Made by a program: the position numbers and the translations under genes. The notes below the pieces were generated by a model. The model worked only from the letters and a program-made list of their open reading frames with translations, made no database searches and was not told where the DNA came from. Shown piece after piece: positions 51,860 to 60,924 of a DNA stretch of 64,000 nt. Source of the DNA: Vitreimonas flagellata (GTDB taxonomy: Bacteria > Pseudomonadota > Alphaproteobacteria > Caulobacterales > Aquidulcibacteraceae); NCBI RefSeq assembly GCF_004634425.1, contig NZ_SBJL01000001.1:1151001-1215000 (forward strand), read 5' to 3'. The stretch's first letter is position 1. Each line of letters begins with the position of its first letter.

Positions 51860-52264
51860 TTACGCGCCTTTGCGGCTGGTGCCGAGGCCCATGCGCTTGG
51901 CGAGCGTCGAGCGCTCCTTGGCGTAGTTGGGGGCGACCATCGGATAATCGTGCGGCAGACCCCATTTGGTCCGGTATTCGTCAGGCGTCATGCCGTAGCG
52001 CGTGCGCAAATGGCGCTTCAAGGATTTGAATTTCTTGCCGTCTTCGAGGCAGATGATGAAATCGGGCGTCACCGACTTCTTCACCGCGACCGCCGGCTCG
52101 AGCGCATGGTCAGCGGCCAATGCTGGCGCGCCCGAGACTTCCAGCAGCGCTGTATGCACGGTGCGGATGATCGCCGGCAGCTCCTGCGCGGGGATCTGAT
52201 TGGCGGATACGTACGCTGAGACGATCTCGGCGACCATGCCGACCAAGTCGCGTTGCTGATCCAT
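51860..52264 (-). CDS. mucR: MucR/Ros-family transcriptional regulator
   Basis: 134 residues. N-terminal helical oligomerisation part (MDQQRDLVGMVAEIVSAYV) and C-terminal zinc-finger domain FIICLEDGKKFKSLKRHLRTRYGMTPDEYR with the conserved PHDYPMVAPNYAKERS tail. MucR proteins bind AT-rich DNA with TpA steps and often repress themselves and cell-surface genes. ATG 52264 is the conserved start. The upstream gap is AT-rich and fits autoregulation. Confidence 0.92.
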   Translation of the reverse strand: MDQQRDLVGMVAEIVSAYVSANQIPAQELPAIIRTVHTALLEVSGAPALAADHALEPAVAVKKSVTPDFIICLEDGKKFKSLKRHLRTRYGMTPDEYRTKWGLPHDYPMVAPNYAKERSTLAKRMGLGTSRKGA

Positions 52265-52334
52265 ACCCAATCCGCCGCCGGCCAAGTCAATTTAGGTCTA
52301 GTACAGGAAAGGCGCCCCCTCTTGCAAGCCATTC

Positions 52335-52420: not shown

Positions 52421-54115
52421 CTAGTGCAGAAGCAGCATGAGACCTAACGCTGCGCCAATCGAGGCGAGTTGGACGAAACTGGAGATTGAAGCCGCGTACG
52501 GCCGATCACACCGGCTCACCCAGGCTTGGGCCGCATTCGCCACCGCGCGCGCGATCCGGCGCGACACATCCTGCCACGCCCCATAGATGCGCAGCATCAG
52601 CACCCCACCCCAGCGCCCTGCGCCGGCCAGCGGCCCGCGATAGAGCGCATCGATGTCGTAGAGCTGGATCGGCAAGTCGCGCGGAGCGATCGCAAAAACG
52701 CGGAACGCGATCGCCGCCAGGCCCGCGACCCCCAAGAGCTCCAATTGCGGCGCGACGCGATCAAGCGCGAATGCTTCGAACGTCAATTGCGCTGGCATCA
52801 AATCGTAGAGCCAACGCGGCGCCATGCCGACGGACGCGCAGAAGAACGTCGCCAATCCCGCGCCCAGCAACATCGAGAACGGCGCCTCGCTCATGCGCAA
52901 CGGGCGCGGCAACGGCCGATAGATCGACAGCATCGGTCGCAGCGCCAAGCAGATGAACAACATTGCCGGCGTGACAGCCGCGAGCGCCCAGAGCGCAATC
53001 GTGTCCCATTGGGCAAAAGCGTCGAGCGCAACCGCGTGCGTGGCGTAAAGCGCAAAGCCCGGCACGGCCGACACCGCGAGCCCCGCGCCAAGCAACAAGA
53101 ACGACGTGATCGGCATCGCGCGCGAGAGACCAGTGAACGTCGAAATGCGCGCCGTGCCTGTGCGATCCACGATCGAGCCGAGCGTCGCTTGATAGGCCAC
53201 GAACGCGAAGATCGCGGAGAACGCCGTGCCCTCAGCCGCCGCCATCGCCAGCGGCGAACCAAAACCGATCAGCGCCACGCAGATGCCGGTTTGCGCCGTC
53301 AGGCCATACGACGCGGCGCGCCGCAGATCATCCTCGGCCGCCAAATAGAAGAGGCCAATGACGATCATCGCGGCGCCGATATAGATCAGCGCGGGCTCGG
53401 CCGGAAACAATCGCGCCAAGGCATAGACGCCGAGCATCGTCGTTGTGGCCGACAGCGCGGCGCCGCCGGCGGGCGAGGCATGCGACACCGAATCCTTCAG
53501 CCACACATGCGCCAATGGCGCGCCCACGCGGATCAGCAACGCCGCGAAAATGAACACCCCGCCGAGGCTCGATGCGTCCATGCGCGCGAACACGGACGCC
53601 TCCGCCCCCGCGGAGATATGCAGCGCCACGCCGACCAGGAACAACATCCCCTCGATGCCGTGCCAGATCAGCAGCCGCGAGGCGGCGCGTCCTGCATCCT
53701 CCATCGTCGAACAGAATGTCACCCAAGACGCCGCCAGCCCCGCCAGCGACGCCGCCGCCACAAAGCTAATCAAATCGCCGACGAACAACGCAGACACCGC
53801 GCCGCCAAACATCAGCAGGATCGCGGAATCCTCGTAGCGATTGGGCCGCGCGCTCGCATAGATCGCAATCGGGATCAGCGCGATTAGCAGCGCAATGCCA
53901 AAGATGCGGTTGAGCGCGTCGAGATTGAGCAACACGACGGGCAAGCCCATCTGCGCCATCGCCGACGCCGCGCCGAATTCGTGATCAAGCAGAAGCCACA
54001 GCGCCAGGATCGCAGCGCCCGCCATCGTCGGCGCACGAAATCCGCGCGGCGTCGCAAGCAGCACAAATGCCGCCAAGATCAGCACGAAGCCGGGATTAAG
54101 GGTGAGCGCCAGCAT
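52421..54115 (-). CDS. Mrp/NuoM-N-like antiporter-type subunit D3 (charge-poor)
   Basis: 564 residues, about 14 membrane helices plus a longer C-terminal tail. The fold marks of the proton-conducting subunit family are present (LLIRVGAPLAHVWLKDSVSHASP; LSATTTMLGVYALARLF; DLRRAASYGL). Against canonical MrpD the helix-5 Glu segment (FWEGM) reads AASLAG, the helix-7 Lys (IKAA) is Arg (IRVG), and TTK is TTM. The His/Lys helix (AHAFAH, YKALLF) is also neutral. Last gene of the operon; it overlaps the small membrane gene by 20 bases. Not a pseudogene by frame. Confidence 0.85.
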   Translation of the reverse strand: MLALTLNPGFVLILAAFVLLATPRGFRAPTMAGAAILALWLLLDHEFGAASAMAQMGLPVVLLNLDALNRIFGIALLIALIPIAIYASARPNRYEDSAILLMFGGAVSALFVGDLISFVAAASLAGLAASWVTFCSTMEDAGRAASRLLIWHGIEGMLFLVGVALHISAGAEASVFARMDASSLGGVFIFAALLIRVGAPLAHVWLKDSVSHASPAGGAALSATTTMLGVYALARLFPAEPALIYIGAAMIVIGLFYLAAEDDLRRAASYGLTAQTGICVALIGFGSPLAMAAAEGTAFSAIFAFVAYQATLGSIVDRTGTARISTFTGLSRAMPITSFLLLGAGLAVSAVPGFALYATHAVALDAFAQWDTIALWALAAVTPAMLFICLALRPMLSIYRPLPRPLRMSEAPFSMLLGAGLATFFCASVGMAPRWLYDLMPAQLTFEAFALDRVAPQLELLGVAGLAAIAFRVFAIAPRDLPIQLYDIDALYRGPLAGAGRWGGVLMLRIYGAWQDVSRRIARAVANAAQAWVSRCDRPYAASISSFVQLASIGAALGLMLLLH

Positions 54116-54380
54116 CTTGCGCCTCCTCGTGTTCTGCGGACGTTACAGGCTGCGACTTGCGCGCCAGCAACCAGCGTGCGCCACGCGCGGCCAGCACGGC
54201 AAAGATGGCAGCACTGGCGCCGAGCGCCGCCATCCCGCCCGGCTGCGCGCCGATCCAAAATCCGTCGCGCGCGCGCAACACGAAATCGAACGCAAGCCCT
54301 GCCGCGGCCGCGACCGCGCAGAATAGCGTCGCCACGCCCAGCAATCCGCCCTGAGATGGCGCGCGCGGCGTCTTCGTCAT
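54096..54380 (-). CDS. small two-helix membrane protein of the Mrp-like operon
   Basis: 94 residues. Two hydrophobic helices (about 12-34, LLGVATLFCAVAAAAGLAF; about 48-66, MAALGASAAIFAVLAARG) with a basic loop RARDG and an acidic tail. Both gene boundaries overlap neighbours (four bases with D2, 20 with D3), so it is made with the complex. I know no named Mrp counterpart; it may be an accessory subunit. Confidence 0.7.
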   Translation of the reverse strand: MTKTPRAPSQGGLLGVATLFCAVAAAAGLAFDFVLRARDGFWIGAQPGGMAALGASAAIFAVLAARGARWLLARKSQPVTSAEHEEAQDAGAHP

Positions 54381-55843
54381 GAGGCGGGCGTCCAGATCGG
54401 CGAAAGGAACGAAGCGAGCGGGTCAGCGAACAACAGCAACAGCAAGGTCGCCGCGGCGCCAAGCACGACGGGTGCAGCCAGCAGAATCGATGCCCCATCC
54501 GGTCGCTTGAACGCATCGGTCGGCGCGCGCGCTGCAAGCGCATTCGCCGCGAGCGGCCCTAAATGGATGAAGGTCAGGATCGCGGCAATCCCGGCGAGTG
54601 CGGCGGCCCAGATCAAACCGGCGCCAGCCGACGCCGTGATGAGCCACAGCTTCGCCCAGGCGCCAGCAAAGGGCGGCAGCCCGATCATGCTCGCGGAGGC
54701 AATCGCGAAGCCTGCAAATGTCCAGGGCATCACACGGCCTAGCCCTGCATAGTCCGCCACCTTCTCGCGCGCCGTCACCGCCGCCGTCGTGCCAGCCGCC
54801 ATCATCAATGTCGCGGAGGCGCACGCGAACGCCACAACTTGCAAGGCCGCTGCGAACAATCCCGCCGGCAGCGCCAGCAACGCGCCCATCGCCACAGCAA
54901 GCACCTGCGCCATTGCTGAGTAAGCAAGCCGCTCTCGAATATCTTGCTTTGAAAGCGCGATCAGCGCCGCCGCGCACATGCCGGCGCCCACCAGCACAAT
55001 CAACGCTTGTGACGCGATCGCGGCTTCATGCAGCGCGGGGCCAAACACATAAGCCGTAATCTTCAACAGCCCGATCGCGCCAGCCGGCAACACCGCCAAC
55101 GCTTGGATCGACACTAATGCCGGATATGGCGCGCTGCTCGATGCAGCGAGCCAACGATGCAGCGGCGGCGTCGCCGCCATGGCAAGCCCCAGCACATAAA
55201 GCACCAGCAAAATGTTCGCCGTCACTGCATCGACGCGCCCGACAAGCATGCCGCCCGTCTGGAACTCGAGCGCGCCCGCGAGTGCGTACGTCCACACCAT
55301 CGCCGGCAAGAACAGGCCCACGGATGCCGTCAGCAACGTCGCCAAGAAATCTCGCGCCGCCTTGCGCGCTTCGTCATCGCCACGATGCGCCACAAGCGGA
55401 AACACAGCGAGGATGAGCGCCTGGTACGCCACGAAGAACGTGAACAGATTGGCCGAGTACGCGATCGCGATCGTCGCCGCCGACGCAAACGCCATAAACG
55501 CCATCAAGCGCGCCGGCGCTTTCTCGTGTGTGGCCCGCACGACGCCTGCCGAATGCGCTGCATGCAAAACGCCGAGCAACGAAAGCGTCGCCGCCATCAA
55601 CGCGCCGAGCGGTTCAACAACGAAAGCAAGTTCGACCTGCGGCAAAGGTCGCGCCAGCACAATCCGCGCCGTACCACCGTCGGCGACAACGCCAATCAGA
55701 TAGAATGCAGCGAGCGCCGTCACCAAAGCGCCCGTGACATGCGCGACGTCGCGCAAGCCCGGCGGACGCGCGAGCGCCACAACAAGCAGGCCCTGCGCCA
55801 CCGGCGCCACGAGCGCGATGAGGAGCGCGAGTTCGGCGGTCAT
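54377..55843 (-). CDS. Mrp/NuoL-like antiporter-type subunit D2 (proton path neutralised)
   Basis: 488 residues, about 14 helices. The alignment to canonical cation:proton antiporter subunit D is obvious (PLVAHRGDDEARKAARDF; PPLHRWLAAS; LSKQDIRERLAYS; IGLPPFAGAWAK), yet the key residues differ: YEL reads YQA, GKAALMPFHRW reads AMAATPPLHRW, LLHAVAVVKAG reads SIQALAVLPAG, and HAFGKITLF reads FACASATLM. So Glu, both Lys and the His are gone. ATG 55843 overlaps D1 by four bases. Confidence 0.87.
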   Translation of the reverse strand: MTAELALLIALVAPVAQGLLVVALARPPGLRDVAHVTGALVTALAAFYLIGVVADGGTARIVLARPLPQVELAFVVEPLGALMAATLSLLGVLHAAHSAGVVRATHEKAPARLMAFMAFASAATIAIAYSANLFTFFVAYQALILAVFPLVAHRGDDEARKAARDFLATLLTASVGLFLPAMVWTYALAGALEFQTGGMLVGRVDAVTANILLVLYVLGLAMAATPPLHRWLAASSSAPYPALVSIQALAVLPAGAIGLLKITAYVFGPALHEAAIASQALIVLVGAGMCAAALIALSKQDIRERLAYSAMAQVLAVAMGALLALPAGLFAAALQVVAFACASATLMMAAGTTAAVTAREKVADYAGLGRVMPWTFAGFAIASASMIGLPPFAGAWAKLWLITASAGAGLIWAAALAGIAAILTFIHLGPLAANALAARAPTDAFKRPDGASILLAAPVVLGAAATLLLLLFADPLASFLSPIWTPAS

Positions 55844-57303
55844 GGCGCTCCCGCCATCAAAGCCGCCGCGCCATCGGCCGCGCGCAGCAGCACACCAGGC
55901 GCCAAGCCCCAAACGATCGCGAGCATCGCCGCCAGCATCAGCGGCGCGCCGGCCAAGCGCCAGAGCTCGCTATCGACTTGCGCCTGTGTCGCCGTCACGC
56001 GCCGGAAATAGACGCGCTCCACCAAGCGCCCGCCATAGAACACACCCGCAAGCGAGGTCACGATCACCGCGCCCGCCGCCCACCACCAGCCGGCGCCGAC
56101 ACCAGCTTCCACCAAGCGCCAACGGCCAAGGAATCCAATCGTTAGCGGCGCACCCATCAGGCTGATCGCGGCCGCGGTGATCGCCGCACTCGCCAACGGC
56201 GCGCGCCGGCCCAAACCATCCAGCGCGTCGAACTTCTCAGCGCCGCCGGCGCCAAACGTGACACCACCAAGCAGCGCCAGCGTCGCGACCAGCATCGCAA
56301 ACATCTGCACCAGAGCCGCCGCAAAGCCAGCCGGCGAACCGAGTGCGGCGCACAGCAACGCCACGCCCGCTTGTGCAGCGCCTGCGTATGCCGCCAGCCG
56401 CAACACATTGCGAGCGCCCACGGCCTGCACCGAGCCAATAACGACGCTCACCGCACCCAAAGTCGCCAACGTAATCGAAACACCCTCGCCAATCGCCGGC
56501 GCAGGCAGCGCAAATGAGGCCAACCTCACCAGCACGGAAAGGCCCCCCACAGCGCCGATCGCGCCCAATACCAAAACCGCAAGACGCCCCGCTCTGCCGT
56601 ACGCCGGGCCGATCCAGAAATTGAGCGGCGCAATGCCAGCCTTCAGCGCCACGGAGAGCAGCACTAACCCCATACCCGCCGCGGCAAGTCCGGGTGCATC
56701 GATGTGTGCGCTCGGCAGGGTCGCCAAATCCGTGCCGCCGACGCCGCGATGCATAAGCGCCGCGCCCAAGAAGAAGAGCGCCGAAGACACACCGCCAGCA
56801 ACGAACATGCGCGAAGCGCCATTGAGCGCGCCGCGATCGGAGGAAAGCGCCAGCACGCCAACGCTCGCCAGCCAAGCGAACTCAATCGCAGCGAACACAC
56901 CGAGCAAATCGCGCGCAAACACCGCGCCGATCCACCCAGCGCCCGCGCATAGAACCAGCGCGATCGCCAAGCCAGCGATGGGCGCGGGGAAATCGCGCAC
57001 GAATGCGCCAGCGCCCATTATCAACAACGCCAATGCGACAGCGATCAGCGCCGCTGCGAAGATCGCGATCCCGTCCGCATAGAGCAGCACGCCTTCAATC
57101 GTGCCGGTGAGCGGCGTCACTTCGAGCAGCGCGCGCACGACGGCGTCGATACCGAGAAACGCAGTGGCGAATGCAGTGATCACGCCAACGCCCCACGCCA
57201 GGCGCCCCGGCAGCAGGAACGCAAGCGCAGCGCCGCAGAGCGGCACGAGCAGCGTCAGCAACGGTGCGTGTAGCCGCGCGAGATCGAGGTACGCGCCGAT
57301 CAC
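55840..57303 (-). CDS. Mrp/NuoM-like antiporter-type subunit D1
   Basis: 487 residues, about 14 helices. It keeps a helix-5 Glu (FAAIEFAWLAS) and the helix-7 Lys (LKAGIAPLNFWIGPAYG). The helix-8 Lys (LLTKVGVYAL) is replaced in GAIGAVGGLSVL, and the downstream His/Lys pair is replaced in LVQMFAMLVATLALL. Overlaps mrpC by four bases. It is the least altered of the three large subunits and therefore the best candidate for residual ion transport. Confidence 0.88.
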   Translation of the reverse strand: MIGAYLDLARLHAPLLTLLVPLCGAALAFLLPGRLAWGVGVITAFATAFLGIDAVVRALLEVTPLTGTIEGVLLYADGIAIFAAALIAVALALLIMGAGAFVRDFPAPIAGLAIALVLCAGAGWIGAVFARDLLGVFAAIEFAWLASVGVLALSSDRGALNGASRMFVAGGVSSALFFLGAALMHRGVGGTDLATLPSAHIDAPGLAAAGMGLVLLSVALKAGIAPLNFWIGPAYGRAGRLAVLVLGAIGAVGGLSVLVRLASFALPAPAIGEGVSITLATLGAVSVVIGSVQAVGARNVLRLAAYAGAAQAGVALLCAALGSPAGFAAALVQMFAMLVATLALLGGVTFGAGGAEKFDALDGLGRRAPLASAAITAAAISLMGAPLTIGFLGRWRLVEAGVGAGWWWAAGAVIVTSLAGVFYGGRLVERVYFRRVTATQAQVDSELWRLAGAPLMLAAMLAIVWGLAPGVLLRAADGAAALMAGAP

Positions 57304-57623
57304 GCCTTCGGCTCCGCTGGCTCGTTTGCCTCGTCCGCGACGTCAAACTCCGCCGCTTCCACGCCGCCATACGCTTCCTGCAGCCGCACGCCGAGCGCTG
57401 TGCCGATAGCCAATTGCGCAAACGCCGCGGCAATGCCCACCACGAGCAACGTCACCGGCGCACTCAGTGCAGCCGCACCCGCAAGCGCGCCCAGGCTCGC
57501 CACCAGCAGCCCAACCACGCGCTTGATAAAATTCGCCGATGTCCACGCCGTCACCGCGCCAAGCATCAGCATGGCGACGGCGACCGCGAGCACAAGTCGC
57601 GCGACGATGGGATCGATCACCAT
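57300..57623 (-). CDS. mrpC: MrpC/NuoK-like subunit
   Basis: 107 residues, three membrane helices (MVIDPIVARLVLAVAVAMLM; FIKRVVGLLVASLGALAGA; VTLLVVGIAAAFAQLAIGTALGV cut near residue 80) and a charged tail. Pattern fits MnhC/NuoK, which forms the linker between large subunits. ATG 57623 lies seven bases inside the end of mrpB. Confidence 0.85.
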   Translation of the reverse strand: MVIDPIVARLVLAVAVAMLMLGAVTAWTSANFIKRVVGLLVASLGALAGAAALSAPVTLLVVGIAAAFAQLAIGTALGVRLQEAYGGVEAAEFDVADEANEPAEPKA

Positions 57624-58003
57624 TCGCCGTCTCGCAATGTCGGCGCCCGACCAAACAACGCGACGATCACCAGCGCACAGGCGCCCTGCGTCAGCAGGAA
57701 CGCGCCCGCCTCAACGATGCGCGGCGCGAACGCCAAACCCGGAACGCCAACACTCACGCTTGCCGTCGCCAACCCGAGCGCCACAAACACGCGGCTGAGC
57801 CACGGCGGAAACGCGCGCGCAGAGGCCGCGGCGCCAAACACGAGCGCATGCAGCATCAGCGCCAAACCAGCAGCCAGCCCCGCGACAAAGCCAATCCCGC
57901 TTCCGGAAGGCGCCACCGCCAACAAGCTCAACGCAAACAGAACGATCAACGGCGCATAGAGACGCGCCGTCGCCGAAATCATGATGTGCGCGCCGGGCTT
58001 CAC
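57617..58003 (-). CDS. mrpB: MrpB (MnhB-domain) subunit
   Basis: 128 residues, four membrane helices. Family marks: ISATARLYAPLIVLFALSLL, GSGIGFVAGLAAGLALMLHAL and FLLTQGACALVIVALFG. Start ATG 58003 overlaps the previous stop (ATGA); ATG 57982 is possible. In Mbh/Mrp complexes this subunit sits next to the MbhD/E region. Confidence 0.87.
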   Translation of the reverse strand: MKPGAHIMISATARLYAPLIVLFALSLLAVAPSGSGIGFVAGLAAGLALMLHALVFGAAASARAFPPWLSRVFVALGLATASVSVGVPGLAFAPRIVEAGAFLLTQGACALVIVALFGRAPTLRDGEW

Positions 58004-58482
58004 AATTCGCCATCCATCGAATTGCGTTGCAGCGCGCCGCGCTCGCCATAGCCGAGCAACCCGATAAAGGCCGCGACCGCCACGAACACGATGGGCGCGA
58101 TCCAGGCGCTAATCGCTTCCGGCGGCGGCGCTTCCGCCGGCCCCGCAATGCCAAGTTCGGATGTGGACCACAGCACCACGAGTGCGACGACCACTGCCGC
58201 GCCCACACTCAGCCAAGGCCGCGCGCGCCGTTGCGCCTTCGTTGTGCGCGCGCTGAGTAAAATCAGGCCAAGCAGTGCAACTGGCGCAACGCCCGCAAAC
58301 ATCAACGCAACGCCAACCGCGCCGCCGCCATAGAGCAACGCAAAGGCGCCCGTCGCCAGCGCGCCCGCGGCGATGAGATACATGCACATGACGAACAACG
58401 CGCGCGCGAGCACCGCGCCGAGCGCGGCGGCGAATGCAGCGCACATCAAGGCGAGCGCCATCCACGGCGCGATCAGGCTCAT
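58000..58482 (-). CDS. NuoJ/MbhD-like subunit (replaces MrpA C-terminal part)
   Basis: 160 residues, five helices. The first half (MALALMCAAFAAALGAVLAR; GGAVGVALMFAGVAPVALLGLILLS) resembles the NuoJ/MbhD/DUF4040 module, the second half (WIAPIVFVAVAAFIGLLGYG) the MbhE end. In classical Mrp these modules are the C-terminus of the large MrpA; here they form a free small subunit between mrpG and mrpB, as in the Mbh membrane hydrogenase order. Overlaps both neighbours by four bases. Confidence 0.75.
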   Translation of the reverse strand: MSLIAPWMALALMCAAFAAALGAVLARALFVMCMYLIAAGALATGAFALLYGGGAVGVALMFAGVAPVALLGLILLSARTTKAQRRARPWLSVGAAVVVALVVLWSTSELGIAGPAEAPPPEAISAWIAPIVFVAVAAFIGLLGYGERGALQRNSMDGEL

Positions 58483-58838
58483 GTTGGCTCACCCGCGCCG
58501 GGACGCGGCGCTGTGTATTTGCCGGTCACTGGCGCCAGTCCGCCCGCATGCGCCGCACTTGCAAACACGTGCGACCAGAGCGGCCCTAGAGCGCCGAGCA
58601 GGAGCGCGAGGAGCAGCAGCTTCACAGCCATCGCCAAACTCGGCGCAGCGATCGCAAGTCCGGTCACGATAACAACCGCACCCAACGGATTGGCGGTCGT
58701 TGCGCCATGTACGCGCGTATAGATGTCAGGAAAGCGCAACAGCCCCACCGCGCCGCCGAGCAGAAACACCAGGCCAACCGCGACGAACGCGCCGCCTATC
58801 CCTAAGCGCATGATTTCGAGGATCGCATCGCCGCCCAT
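58479..58838 (-). CDS. mrpG: MrpG (MnhG) subunit
   Basis: 119 residues, three helices. Clear family motif GLLRFPDIYTRVHGATTANPLG. MrpG helps scaffold the cation module. Start ATG 58838 shares a base with the mrpF stop; its stop overlaps the NuoJ/MbhD-like start. Confidence 0.92.
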   Translation of the reverse strand: MGGDAILEIMRLGIGGAFVAVGLVFLLGGAVGLLRFPDIYTRVHGATTANPLGAVVIVTGLAIAAPSLAMAVKLLLLALLLGALGPLWSHVFASAAHAGGLAPVTGKYTAPRPGAGEPT

Positions 58839-59125
58839 CAGCTATCCTCGCCAGCGCGCACGAGCGCCGGTTGGAACGTACGCGCGCGGAAGAACTTCAG
58901 CACCGCTACGGCGGTCACAATCGCCACAAACACCAAAGCCAGCGCGACATCGACAATGGCGGCATCGCCCATGAACACCGCCGCGCCCGCAGCGATCAGC
59001 GCGAGTTCGATCAACACCAAAGTCGCCGCCAAGGCGCGGTCGTAGAGCGACGGCCCCGAAAACAGCCGAAGCAATGTCATGATCAAAGCAATCGACACGC
59101 CGGCGATGGCGACAATCCCGATCAT
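58838..59125 (-). CDS. mrpF: MrpF (MnhF) subunit
   Basis: 95 residues, three helices: IALIMTLLRLFSGPSLYDRALAA, LVLIELALIAAGAAVFMGD and VDVALALVFVAIVTAVAVLKFF (each cut to fit about 20 residues in the helix). Conserved SLYDR loop present. Start overlaps the mrpE stop by four bases. Confidence 0.9.
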   Translation of the reverse strand: MIGIVAIAGVSIALIMTLLRLFSGPSLYDRALAATLVLIELALIAAGAAVFMGDAAIVDVALALVFVAIVTAVAVLKFFRARTFQPALVRAGEDS

Positions 59126-59589
59126 GCCTCGCCCCCGCCAATCACTTGCGCTTCGAGACGCCCGAGGTCGTCGGCGTCCACCGCGTCTTCATTCAGCACG
59201 TGCACCAAGAGTCCATCGGGATCCACATCGACCACGGCCATGCCGGGCGTCGCGCTGATCATCGCACCAAACGCGGCGCGTTGGTTGGGACGCCGCGCCC
59301 GCGACTTCACGCGCACCAAAGCGGGCTTCAACGTCACGTCCGCCGCGATCGCAGCGCGCATGGTCGCGAACGCGCCGCTGAGCACGGCGCCGACGCGTGA
59401 AAGCGCGCGAAACGCTGCTGCCGGCGCACGCGACAGCGCGCCACTGACGCCGCCGGCACGCCAAGCGAACACCACGCAGCACATCGCCGCGAGGCCCGAA
59501 ATCGCGAGCTCTTCATTGGAGCGCCAGCCGCCCGTTGCGAGCAGCCAGATTATCCACAATCCCGTCAGCAAAGACGCGGCGTGAAGCAC
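59122..59589 (-). CDS. mrpE: MrpE (MnhE) subunit, first gene of the operon
   Basis: 155 residues. Two helices near the N-terminus then the soluble MnhE domain with TLKPALVRVKSR, MISATPGMAVVDVDPDG and LLVHVLNEDAV, all typical. GTG 59589 has AGGGAGG upstream, partly inside a stem-loop. It follows the DUF2336 gene by 88 bases on the same strand, so the two may be co-transcribed. Confidence 0.92.
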   Translation of the reverse strand: MLHAASLLTGLWIIWLLATGGWRSNEELAISGLAAMCCVVFAWRAGGVSGALSRAPAAAFRALSRVGAVLSGAFATMRAAIAADVTLKPALVRVKSRARRPNQRAAFGAMISATPGMAVVDVDPDGLLVHVLNEDAVDADDLGRLEAQVIGGGEA

Positions 59590-59677: not shown

Positions 59678-60898
59678 TCAGCCGTTGCGCCCGAACAATA
59701 ATGCGGCGTTGCGCCGCGCGAGCGAGAGGTCGAGCGTGTCGTCTTCGAAAGAAACGCGCTGCAATTCAACGGCGTCCGCCGTGAAGGACCAATTCCAGTA
59801 CCGCACGACCGTCTGCGCCTTCGCCGTCGCCAATGTGTCAAACACATAAGCCGCGCGCCCGAGCGGATTGTCAGTGCTGTCCGGATCGCCGTACGGGCGC
59901 CGCAACGCGCGCCACAAAGCGAGGAAGAGCGGGCGCTTTAAACCCACGGCTTTGCACAGCACGCCGATGGCTTCGCCACCAACGTCTGTGAATATCTGTT
60001 GCGCCGTCGTCGGCTTCACGCCGGCCAAGTGCGCGATCTCATGCAGCAAATTCCGATCGAGTCCATGCTCGGCCGCCGCAAGCGCGCCCTCGAGCGAGCC
60101 GTACGGACTTTGCGCGGCCGCAGCGCGGTTGCGCTGGCGACGTTCCACAACTTGCAGCGCCTTGCGCGTATCCGCATCGGCCCAGCCTTCGGCGGCCGCC
60201 ATTTTGAACACATCGCCGAGCTCAAGGATCAAAGCGGTGCGATCGACTGCGAAACGACGCAGGATTTGCACGCGCGATTCAAAGTTCGCCCACCAGAACA
60301 GAACCAGCGCCTGCGTTGGCCGCAATTCCGTTCGCGCAACGAGCAGCTTGGGCAAGCTCGCGGCCTGACGCGAGCGCGCCACCGCCACATCGACGCCTTG
60401 CATCGAAAGTTTCGCGAATTGATTGCGCAGCACTGCTTCGATGACCTGGACCTCGCCGGTTTGGATCAACCCATCCGTCACCGGCTCGCTTAACCCACGT
60501 CTCTTTGCAATCGCGACCCAATGCGGCGTGACGCCAGCGCGGATCGTGGCGATGAGATCGGAATCGTCGAAACCAACGCCATTCTCGAGCAGCGGCCCGG
60601 CGACGCTAATTTCATCGCGCGCGAGATAACGCAGCAGCGCTTTTGGCGCGTCGGAAATTCGCGCCAGGCCATGGGCGCAGCGCTGGCGCAATTCCAAGCT
60701 CGACGTGCGCAGCAGGCCAACAAGAATGTCCGCCGCCAATTGGCGCTCATACGCCGGGATACGGCTCTCCGGCCAAGACACGAGTTCGCACAGCCGCGAC
60801 ACAAGCGCGAGCCGCGCCTTTGGCGCATGCGGCTCGCTCAGTTCGAGCGGCGGCAGCTGGTCGGAAAAGTCCGACCGGGGCTGATTCGCGACGGGCAT
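59678..60898 (-). CDS. DUF2336 protein, second paralogue
   Basis: 406 residues, helical. Family marks: LRTSSLELRQRCAHGLARI, DEISVAGPLLENGVGFDDSDL and the C-terminal GVLCKAVGLKRPLFLALWRAL, parallel to IERPLFVTLAVL in the other DUF2336 protein of this window. ATG 60898 is chosen; GTG 60916 is an alternative. Upstream is a CtrA-like box shared with the divergent MFS gene. Downstream is the Mrp-like operon. Confidence 0.83.
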   Translation of the reverse strand: MPVANQPRSDFSDQLPPLELSEPHAPKARLALVSRLCELVSWPESRIPAYERQLAADILVGLLRTSSLELRQRCAHGLARISDAPKALLRYLARDEISVAGPLLENGVGFDDSDLIATIRAGVTPHWVAIAKRRGLSEPVTDGLIQTGEVQVIEAVLRNQFAKLSMQGVDVAVARSRQAASLPKLLVARTELRPTQALVLFWWANFESRVQILRRFAVDRTALILELGDVFKMAAAEGWADADTRKALQVVERRQRNRAAAAQSPYGSLEGALAAAEHGLDRNLLHEIAHLAGVKPTTAQQIFTDVGGEAIGVLCKAVGLKRPLFLALWRALRRPYGDPDSTDNPLGRAAYVFDTLATAKAQTVVRYWNWSFTADAVELQRVSFEDDTLDLSLARRNAALLFGRNG

Positions 60899-60924
60899 AT
60901 CACCCGGAGTCAGCACGCGCGCCG

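Follow-up and report, generated by a model that had tools for sequence, protein, structure and literature searches.

The operon and its ten subunits

The window, the whole analysed stretch of 64,000 nucleotides from Vitreimonas flagellata, carries on its minus strand (52421-59589) a ten-gene operon for a membrane complex of the Mrp (CPA3) type with three antiporter-like subunits. The genes follow each other in the order E-F-G-J-B-C-D1-D2-S-D3. All nine junctions share 1-20 bases when the start of D2 is set at 55843, in agreement with the initial annotation, which was made from the letters and read the ten genes as overlapping end to end. Orthologous three-antiporter operons of other Alpha- and Gammaproteobacteria, here called sister operons, were used for comparison throughout.

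The first gene (59122..59589, on the minus strand like all those that follow) encodes an MrpE-like subunit, E, of 155 amino acids, which matched Pfam MNHE above the cut-off (54 bits). F (58838..59125, 95 amino acids) resembles MrpF, the matches to NCBIfam MrpF-type models remaining under the cut-off (best E-value 8e-8). The MrpG-like subunit G (58479..58838, 119 amino acids) matched TIGR01300 above the cut-off as well as Pfam PhaG_MnhG_YufB; for no other subunit did one of the NCBIfam models shown pass its cut-off. J (58000..58482, 160 amino acids) is a NuoJ/MbhD-like subunit and the counterpart of the MrpA C-terminal domain by its position, which is that of the sister J; the sister J aligns to MrpA and MbhD/MbhE, and Pfam and further sequence searches with J itself gave no meaningful match. 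B (57617..58003, 128 amino acids) is MrpB-like with a Pfam MnhB match above the cut-off. C (57300..57623, 107 amino acids) was assigned as MrpC/NuoK-like from its position, tblastn matches to the C genes of the genus and of the sisters, and weak NCBIfam MrpC matches. The antiporter-like subunits are D1, of the NuoN/MrpD type (55840..57303, 487 amino acids; Pfam PF00361, 97.6 bits), D2, of the MrpD type (54377..55843, 488 amino acids; PF00361, 99.2 bits), and D3, of the MrpA-N/NuoL type with a C-terminal lateral helix (52421..54115, 564 amino acids; PF00361, 43.3 bits). S (54096..54380), between D2 and D3, encodes a small hydrophobic protein of 94 amino acids, probably with two membrane helices, for which scans of Pfam and NCBIfam gave no family above the cut-off.

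Mrp or complex I families of Pfam above the cut-off were found for E, G, B, D1, D2 and D3, which confirmed the membership in the Mrp-like family; F, C and J were assigned by weaker matches, position and sister orthologues. With these assignments the Mrp/CPA3 set is complete, as counterparts of MrpA (N- and C-terminal parts), MrpB, MrpC, MrpD, MrpE, MrpF and MrpG are all present. The genome (3.91 Mb, 16 contigs) encodes six PF00361 proteins, namely D1-D3 and three clustered others identified by length and alignment as NuoL, NuoM and NuoN, and the operon is therefore the sole Mrp-type one found in it. No redox family of a peripheral module was detected by Pfam among the ten genes of the operon or the ten neighbours scanned; SufE, which is among these neighbours, is an iron-sulphur assembly factor.

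Loss of the proton axis in D1, D2 and D3

In order to locate the proton-axis residues, D1-D3, their orthologues and the NuoL, NuoM and NuoN proteins of the same genome were aligned to chains of known structure, including MrpD of 7QRU. Six residues were followed (Glu137, Lys219, Lys250, His333, Lys337 and Lys392 in MrpD numbering), which in passages of PMC9568556 appear as a Glu/Lys pair, a Lys-His-Lys triad and a Lys in helix 12. At these positions D1 has E141, K221, V252, M337, T341 and R394 (two of six kept), D2 has Q141, M222, P253, F339, S343 and K398 (one of six), and D3 has S123, R196, M227, A301, F305 and H360 (none). Only 3 of 18 axis residues are present in the window, which in this respect lacks the proton axis of Mrp/CPA3.

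The alignment agreed with the motif changes given in the initial annotation. The D2 motifs YQA, AMAA and SIQALAVLPAG stand as quoted there, and in each of the 18 sister D2 proteins compared the columns changed in the window hold E, K, H and K; the later His/Lys of D2 is lost as well, with F339 and S343 at the helix-11 sites. D3 is uncharged at the helix-5, helix-8 and helix-11 sites and carries Arg for Lys in helix 7, and D1 keeps the helix-5 Glu141 and the helix-7 Lys221 and has lost the rest. The helix-12 Lys398 of D2, and the Arg that D1 has at that site, had been overlooked. No K, H, E or D displaced by a few residues was seen near the axis sites in the D1-D3 stretches of the window, except for D3 His360, which stands at the helix-12 site itself.

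The same pattern was observed across the genus. Conservation was compared in 15 genus sequences (14 for E, F and G) and 18 sisters (20 for motif comparison; locus L110, described below, was left aside) picked from 80 loci; fragments of 380 amino acids or fewer were dropped from the axis tables, and those of 150 or fewer from the tables of wider-family stretches. Lys is replaced by Arg in helix 12 of D1 in 15/15 and in helix 7 of D3 in 14/15 genus sequences, and the helix-8 Lys site of D3 is Met in 11/15. Two elements persist: the helix-12 Lys of D2 is present in every genus sequence read, and the helix-5 Glu and helix-7 Lys are both kept in 14 of 20 distinct genus D1 proteins and both lost in five.

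A general loss of charged residues was considered and rejected, because only the axis columns stand out: in D1-D3 the genus majority keeps 3/18 axis columns, whereas of the remaining columns with a charge conserved in the sisters it keeps 23/35 (Fisher p = 0.0011; the columns are not independent). Over nine subunits, the genus majority keeps 42/75 charged, 95/210 hydrophobic, 27/116 polar and 84/132 Gly/Pro columns among those conserved in the sisters. The complex I subunits NuoL, NuoM and NuoN served as a control, and in seven genomes of the genus (74-94% identity) they keep their axis charges; one uncharged NuoN site changed from N to T in five of the seven.

Loss of the Na+ route in J and of other stretches

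J of the genus lacks two motifs of the sisters, DVAFTEAAVGAG and RGFDTLGE, and over that region the sister J aligns with the C-terminal domain of MrpA. This part of MrpA holds the Na+-route region with Asp678, Thr682, Glu687 and Glu780 (passages of PMC9568556). MrpA residues were matched to J by motif, the equivalence of Glu687 being uncertain, and on this basis the acidic Na+ route (Asp678, Glu687, Glu780) was not found in the genus J, from which the aligned sister motifs are absent. Further changes were noted in the small subunits. C has lost the PLPhVLILTAIVVG stretch of the sisters, B and C have both lost long stretches conserved in the sisters, and E has an SATPGM-like stretch in place of NSITLTPGT.

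Conservation of fold and most assembly residues

Mutants of the Bacillus Mrp allow residues of activity and of assembly to be told apart. According to passages of PMC5703873, MrpD-E137A, MrpD-K219A and MrpA-E780A abolish antiport while the complex stays, and the complex itself is abolished by MrpD-D75A, MrpD-R258A, MrpE-T113Y and MrpF-D32A. Among the genus D1-D3 sequences, 44/45 have Asp or Glu at the D75 column and 45/45 Arg or Lys at the R258 column, and an Asp-Arg pair occupies the MrpF D32/R33 columns in 14/14 F sequences. Three of the four positions needed for complex formation are kept, the exception being T113 of MrpE (see below), and the activity residues are mostly lost.

The AlphaFold model of D3 had a mean predicted local distance difference test score (pLDDT) of 85.1 and a predicted template modelling score (pTM) of 0.83. 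Helices 7 (184-197/204-212) and 12 (335-348/355-369) are broken in it, which is also the case in antiporters, and a long helix at 488-536 is consistent with the lateral helix of MrpA/NuoL. The structures most similar to this model by Foldseek were Mrp, complex I and formate hydrogenlyase chains, with a query-normalised template modelling score of 0.77 to MrpA (7qru_A). The 14-helix fold of PF00361 was found in D3 by the model, and in D1 and D2 by sequence only. The model of J is less sure (pLDDT 72.4, pTM 0.54); Foldseek gave no match at an E-value of 0.001 or better and poor root-mean-square deviations, and the first 15 matches were all complex I or NDH-1 chains, which, going by their chain letters, we take to be of the NuoJ/NdhG/ND6 kind. 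Together, these results suggest that the subunits very probably still fold and assemble.

An ordinary Na+/H+ antiporter could nevertheless persist on fewer residues, through Glu141/Lys221 of D1 or Lys398 of D2. The D1 proteins that keep both Glu and Lys and the retained helix-12 Lys of D2 speak for this. However, in four of the five genus complexes whose D1 has lost both residues (L057, L061, L065, L066) all ten genes are present; in the fifth, L072, the contig is cut. Moreover, the Na+-route motifs of J are lost, and MrpD-E137A or K219A alone abolishes antiport in the Bacillus Mrp, as noted above from PMC5703873. In complex I, K235M (middle Lys) or K385I (terminal Lys) blocks proton conduction by isolated modules (passages of PMC11496545). 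Because single axis changes abolish antiport in the one system or block conduction in the other, ordinary Mrp antiport is improbable, and we consider this the most remote of the explanations. The proposal of the initial annotation that the complex uses D1 alone is likewise not supported by the genus D1 proteins without Glu and Lys.

Distribution of the complex and of the axis loss

The family Aquidulcibacteraceae comprises Terricaulis, Vitreimonas, Aquidulcibacter and Pseudaquidulcibacter, as given in passages of PMC12700997. The bacteria that keep the complex are inhabitants of soil and fresh water. D2 was surveyed in 60 genomes, 30 of the genus and 30 of other family members, and an orthologue was found in 26/30 genus genomes, including 20/20 of those at least 90% complete. 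Outside the genus the complex was present in 11/30 family genomes and undetected in 19/30. The D2 orthologue was not found in 14 genomes of genera g6 and g21 of the same family (G034, G061-G068, G073-G077), so that these parts of the family appear to have lost the whole complex. The window D2 is 61-79% identical to 17 genus relatives, and 131 columns are invariant in the 18 sequences.

The loci of relatives were taken as the best 80 from a scan of genome contigs, and wherever a contig was long enough to show it, the loci read had the same gene order. Axis scores were counted on distinct sequences, since some genomes occur twice, and a helix-12 Glu was scored as kept, which raises the scores inside and outside the family alike; D3 of G030 and several pieces of G070 are partial. 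The 18 distinct genus complexes keep 1-4 of 18 axis residues and nine further family complexes 1-7, with a different subset in each genus, so that the range is 1-7 in the 27 distinct family complexes in which all three D subunits were read. D3 of two loci of the family outside the genus, L157 and L158, keeps Glu, Lys, Lys and a helix-12 Glu, none of which is found in the window D3. Outside the family, all three D subunits were read in 60 distinct complexes, of which 59 have 16-18 of 18 axis residues. Relatives with intact charges were found in other families only, whereas the readable family members are neutralised too; the window operon is therefore not a single decayed copy, an explanation also rejected by the occurrence of D2 in most genus genomes.

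A phylogeny computed with FastTree from the concatenated D1-D3 sequences of 43 operons (1532 columns) showed the family as one clade with a support of 1.0 and a long stem. The exception outside the family, L110, scored 13/18 with D3 alone largely neutralised, and stood beside the family clade, a position which may be due to long-branch attraction. This operon belongs to a metagenome-assembled genome of Candidatus Phaeomarinobacter, in which D3 (L110:8145-9833) lacks most axis charges and D1 and D2 are intact; it may represent an independent start of the same process.

Many Alpha- and Gammaproteobacteria have a three-antiporter Mrp-type operon in which a short open reading frame separates D2 from D3 (L099-L156, L039-L052). 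An open reading frame of similar size, matched by size and position, was present in 11/11 sister loci inspected, which makes it unlikely that S is a new subunit of the form without the axis. D3 has Asn at the helix-7 Lys site in gammaproteobacterial sister operons that are otherwise largely intact (e.g., L137, L147, L155).

Selection on the operon

The ratio of non-synonymous to synonymous substitution (dN/dS) was calculated by the Nei-Gojobori method with our own script for up to ten genes in seven pairs. The values ranged from 0.02 to 0.42, and are rough since dS often approached or exceeded 1; D2 reached 0.02-0.17 in the seven pairs, and the seven genes other than D1-D3 had 0.24-0.42 when WIN and L077 were paired (WIN-L077). 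Most of the genus has unbroken frames and dN/dS is low, which upholds the claim of intact frames under selection. The breaks in G023 (L071 and L085 = CP096134.1, a metagenome-assembled genome in the form of a complete chromosome), which has frameshifts in D1 and D2, were considered as marks of a pseudogene; because a nearby MFS gene is broken too, sequencing error is the likelier cause. In two further genomes (L064/L092 and L072/L091) the D1 match is divided into at least two pieces, through error or decay. Relative to membrane segments, which were defined by a simple hydrophobicity rule, loops are better conserved in the genus than in the sisters in 9/9 subunits (sign test p = 0.004). For D1 and D3 this shift is just 0.02, against large values for F and C.

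These data bear on the possibility that the complex is slowly decaying, that is, that the antiporter became useless after a move to low-salt habitats and is drifting to loss while weak constraints hold its frames. The different axis subset in each genus of the family, the genomes outside the genus in which the complex was undetected, the fragmented D1 matches and the higher dN/dS of the seven smaller genes in WIN-L077 are in line with such a drift. However, the presence of D2 in all well-covered genus genomes, its low dN/dS, its many invariant columns and the newly fixed residues described below make mere decay unlikely, and the breaks in G023 point to sequencing error. We regard slow decay as a minor possibility, though a somewhat better one than antiport on fewer residues.

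New charges in D3 and D1

Charges have also been gained on other helices, among them two in D3, E155 and E295, that the initial annotation had overlooked. E155 (helix 6) was found in 20/20 genus sequences and in 0/30 outside the genus. The helix-5 E123 is lost in 19/20 genus sequences, and L095 has both E123 and E155; the helix-5 acid of D3 thus seems to have been replaced by a helix-6 acid, with L095 resembling an intermediate. E295 (helix 11) was found in 19/20 genus sequences and in 0/29 outside sequences reaching the site. In the AlphaFold model E155, H166 and E295 all lie within predicted helices. Around helix 12 of D1, R394 (15/15), R396 (14/15) and E399 (15/15) are nearly constant in genus sequences. 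These new charges fit either static salt bridges or a re-made site.

The latter would mean a rewired transporter, in which protons take a different route or some other ion or small solute is carried, and in which the active charges have been relocated to sites such as E155, R196 and E295 of D3, R394, R396 and E399 of D1, and Q141, H94, H97, H427 and K398 of D2. The fixation of E155 and E295 in the genus, the intermediate-like L095, the helical position of the new residues, the good conservation of D2 and its invariant helix-12 Lys all favour this explanation. On the other hand, Arg is a poor proton relay, the acidic Na+-route motifs of J are lost, and E155 and E295 are missing from the other genera of the family, whose retained subsets differ. 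A rewired transporter is a tentative alternative, and the strongest of the three competitors of the reading developed below.

Neighbouring genes and NhaA

The operon is flanked directly upstream by a DUF2336 gene, possibly a partner (59678..60916, minus strand; Pfam DUF2336, 176.8 bits), and directly downstream by a gene for a MucR-type regulator (51860..52285, minus strand; Pfam ROS_MUCR, 173.7 bits). A DUF2336 match was found at 16/21 genus, 7/14 further family and 33/75 outside loci, and a MucR match at 20/21, 10/14 and 14/75, respectively; in these counts many loci are short, some genomes occur twice, and the DUF2336 match does not always adjoin E. The search for a conserved partner gene, which the initial annotation had suggested, accordingly yielded two conserved neighbours, neither of them unique to the form without the axis. 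Both genes belong to a long-lived neighbourhood, which is also found in some sister families. Their presence near many family operons and some sister operons fits orthologues that stayed in place rather than a new import.

The antiporter gene nhaA was more frequent in the family than in relatives with the intact complex, as NhaA was found in 32/37 family genomes versus 8/18 genomes of three sister families with intact Mrp (p = 0.003, uncorrected for kinship). It is plausible that an exit from the sea and the takeover of Na+/H+ exchange by NhaA were the reason for the loss.

A proposed pseudo-Mrp without antiport

The loss of the axis residues, the conservation of the genes, the low dN/dS and the single clade are established. 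Based on the sequences, we give an even chance to the reading that the operon encodes an assembled pseudo-Mrp without Na+/H+ antiport (the name is coined here), kept for a non-antiport role and most likely serving as a membrane scaffold or regulatory platform. The claim of the initial annotation that selection holds a scaffold which no longer moves protons in the normal way is accordingly retained in part: the proton path is lost while the fold and most assembly residues are kept, but its suggestion of D1 acting alone is not.

The course of events could have been as follows. In one family of Caulobacterales, Na+/H+ antiport would have been lost from an ancestral Mrp-type complex that was encoded by ten genes and had three antiporter-like subunits. 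Its proton relays, namely the Glu of helix 5 with the Lys of helix 7, the Lys of helix 8 with the His/Lys of helix 11, and the Lys of helix 12, would have been replaced by neutral residues or Arg, and the acidic Na+ route of J likewise by neutral residues or Arg. Since Arg is slow to release its proton, the buried positive charges that remain after these replacements may act as fixed structural salt bridges. In its full form, which we hold to be evenly balanced between right and wrong, this account describes a conserved pseudo-antiporter in which the ten subunits and their assembly remained under selection for a non-antiport function, while the proton axis and the Na+ route were dismantled stepwise and new residues were fixed (E155/E295 in D3, Arg for Lys) in a family that left the sea.

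Several observations weigh against this pseudo-Mrp reading. The helix-12 Lys of D2 is invariant in the genus, and 14/20 distinct genus D1 proteins keep the Glu/Lys pair. The MrpE-T113 column, the fourth of the positions required for complex formation, is Thr in only 7/14 genus E sequences. Because it is undetected in 19 of the 30 other family genomes, the complex is dispensable outside the genus. Among the neighbours compared, no partner is unique to the form without the axis, as DUF2336 and MucR also occur near intact operons. Family f3, which lacks either form of the complex, has NhaA in only 3/6 genomes, so that NhaA does not simply track the absence of Mrp. Finally, E155, R196 and E295 of D3 look more like a re-made site than an empty scaffold. 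Weighing these points, we infer an assembled complex that lacks antiport and serves as a scaffold, and we lean with moderate confidence towards a scaffold or regulator before a rewired conduit.

The split between proton transfer and scaffolding in the complex I/Mrp superfamily is debated, as stated in passages of PMC9568556. The operon offers a natural experiment on this question: an orthologous complex from whose three antiporter subunits the axis has been removed exists beside an intact complex I and intact sister orthologues. Such a complex would show which residues the structure needs once transport is gone, and with its ten subunits it may represent a pseudo-transporter on the level of a whole complex. 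It is also a warning that names assigned by family, for instance 'monovalent cation/H+ antiporter subunit D', can misinform on function. In a literature search over the titles, abstracts and passages of open-licence papers no description of this complex was found.

Comparison with known systems

The Mrp (CPA3) antiporters of Bacillus pseudofirmus (7QRU) and Anoxybacillus flavithermus (6Z16) have counterparts of E, F, G, B, C, MrpD and MrpA (D3 plus J); the fold of D3 matches MrpA and MrpD, and most assembly residues are kept in the window complex. Unlike these, the window complex has three antiporter-like subunits, its MrpA is split into D3 and J, and the motifs of the axis and of the Na+ route are mostly lost. 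The nearest gene order in print, going by passages of PMC5703873, is the Group 3 mrpFGBCDDAE of Microbacterium sp. TS-1, which with two D and one A also has three antiporter-type subunits and a similar order of F, G, B and C; the likeness rests on gene order, and in the window MrpA is split and E comes first.

The closest relatives are the three-antiporter operons of Alpha- and Gammaproteobacteria (Marinicaulis, Parvularcula, Sneathiella, Paraglaciecola, Shewanella), which are orthologues with the same order where the contig allows. These Marinicaulis/Shewanella-type sister operons share the short open reading frame between D2 and D3 but differ from the window in their nearly complete axis (16-18/18 residues in 59/60) and in the acidic motifs of J. 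The membrane arms of MBH and MBS (6CFW, 6U8Y) contain homologous E-, F-, B-, D/J- and H-type subunits; they carry a redox arm, as described in passages of PMC7684303, whereas Pfam detected no redox family in the ten genes here. The NuoL/M/N/J/K subunits of complex I share the antiporter fold, and J weakly resembles NuoJ-type chains; however, a separate complex I with an intact axis is encoded in the same genome.

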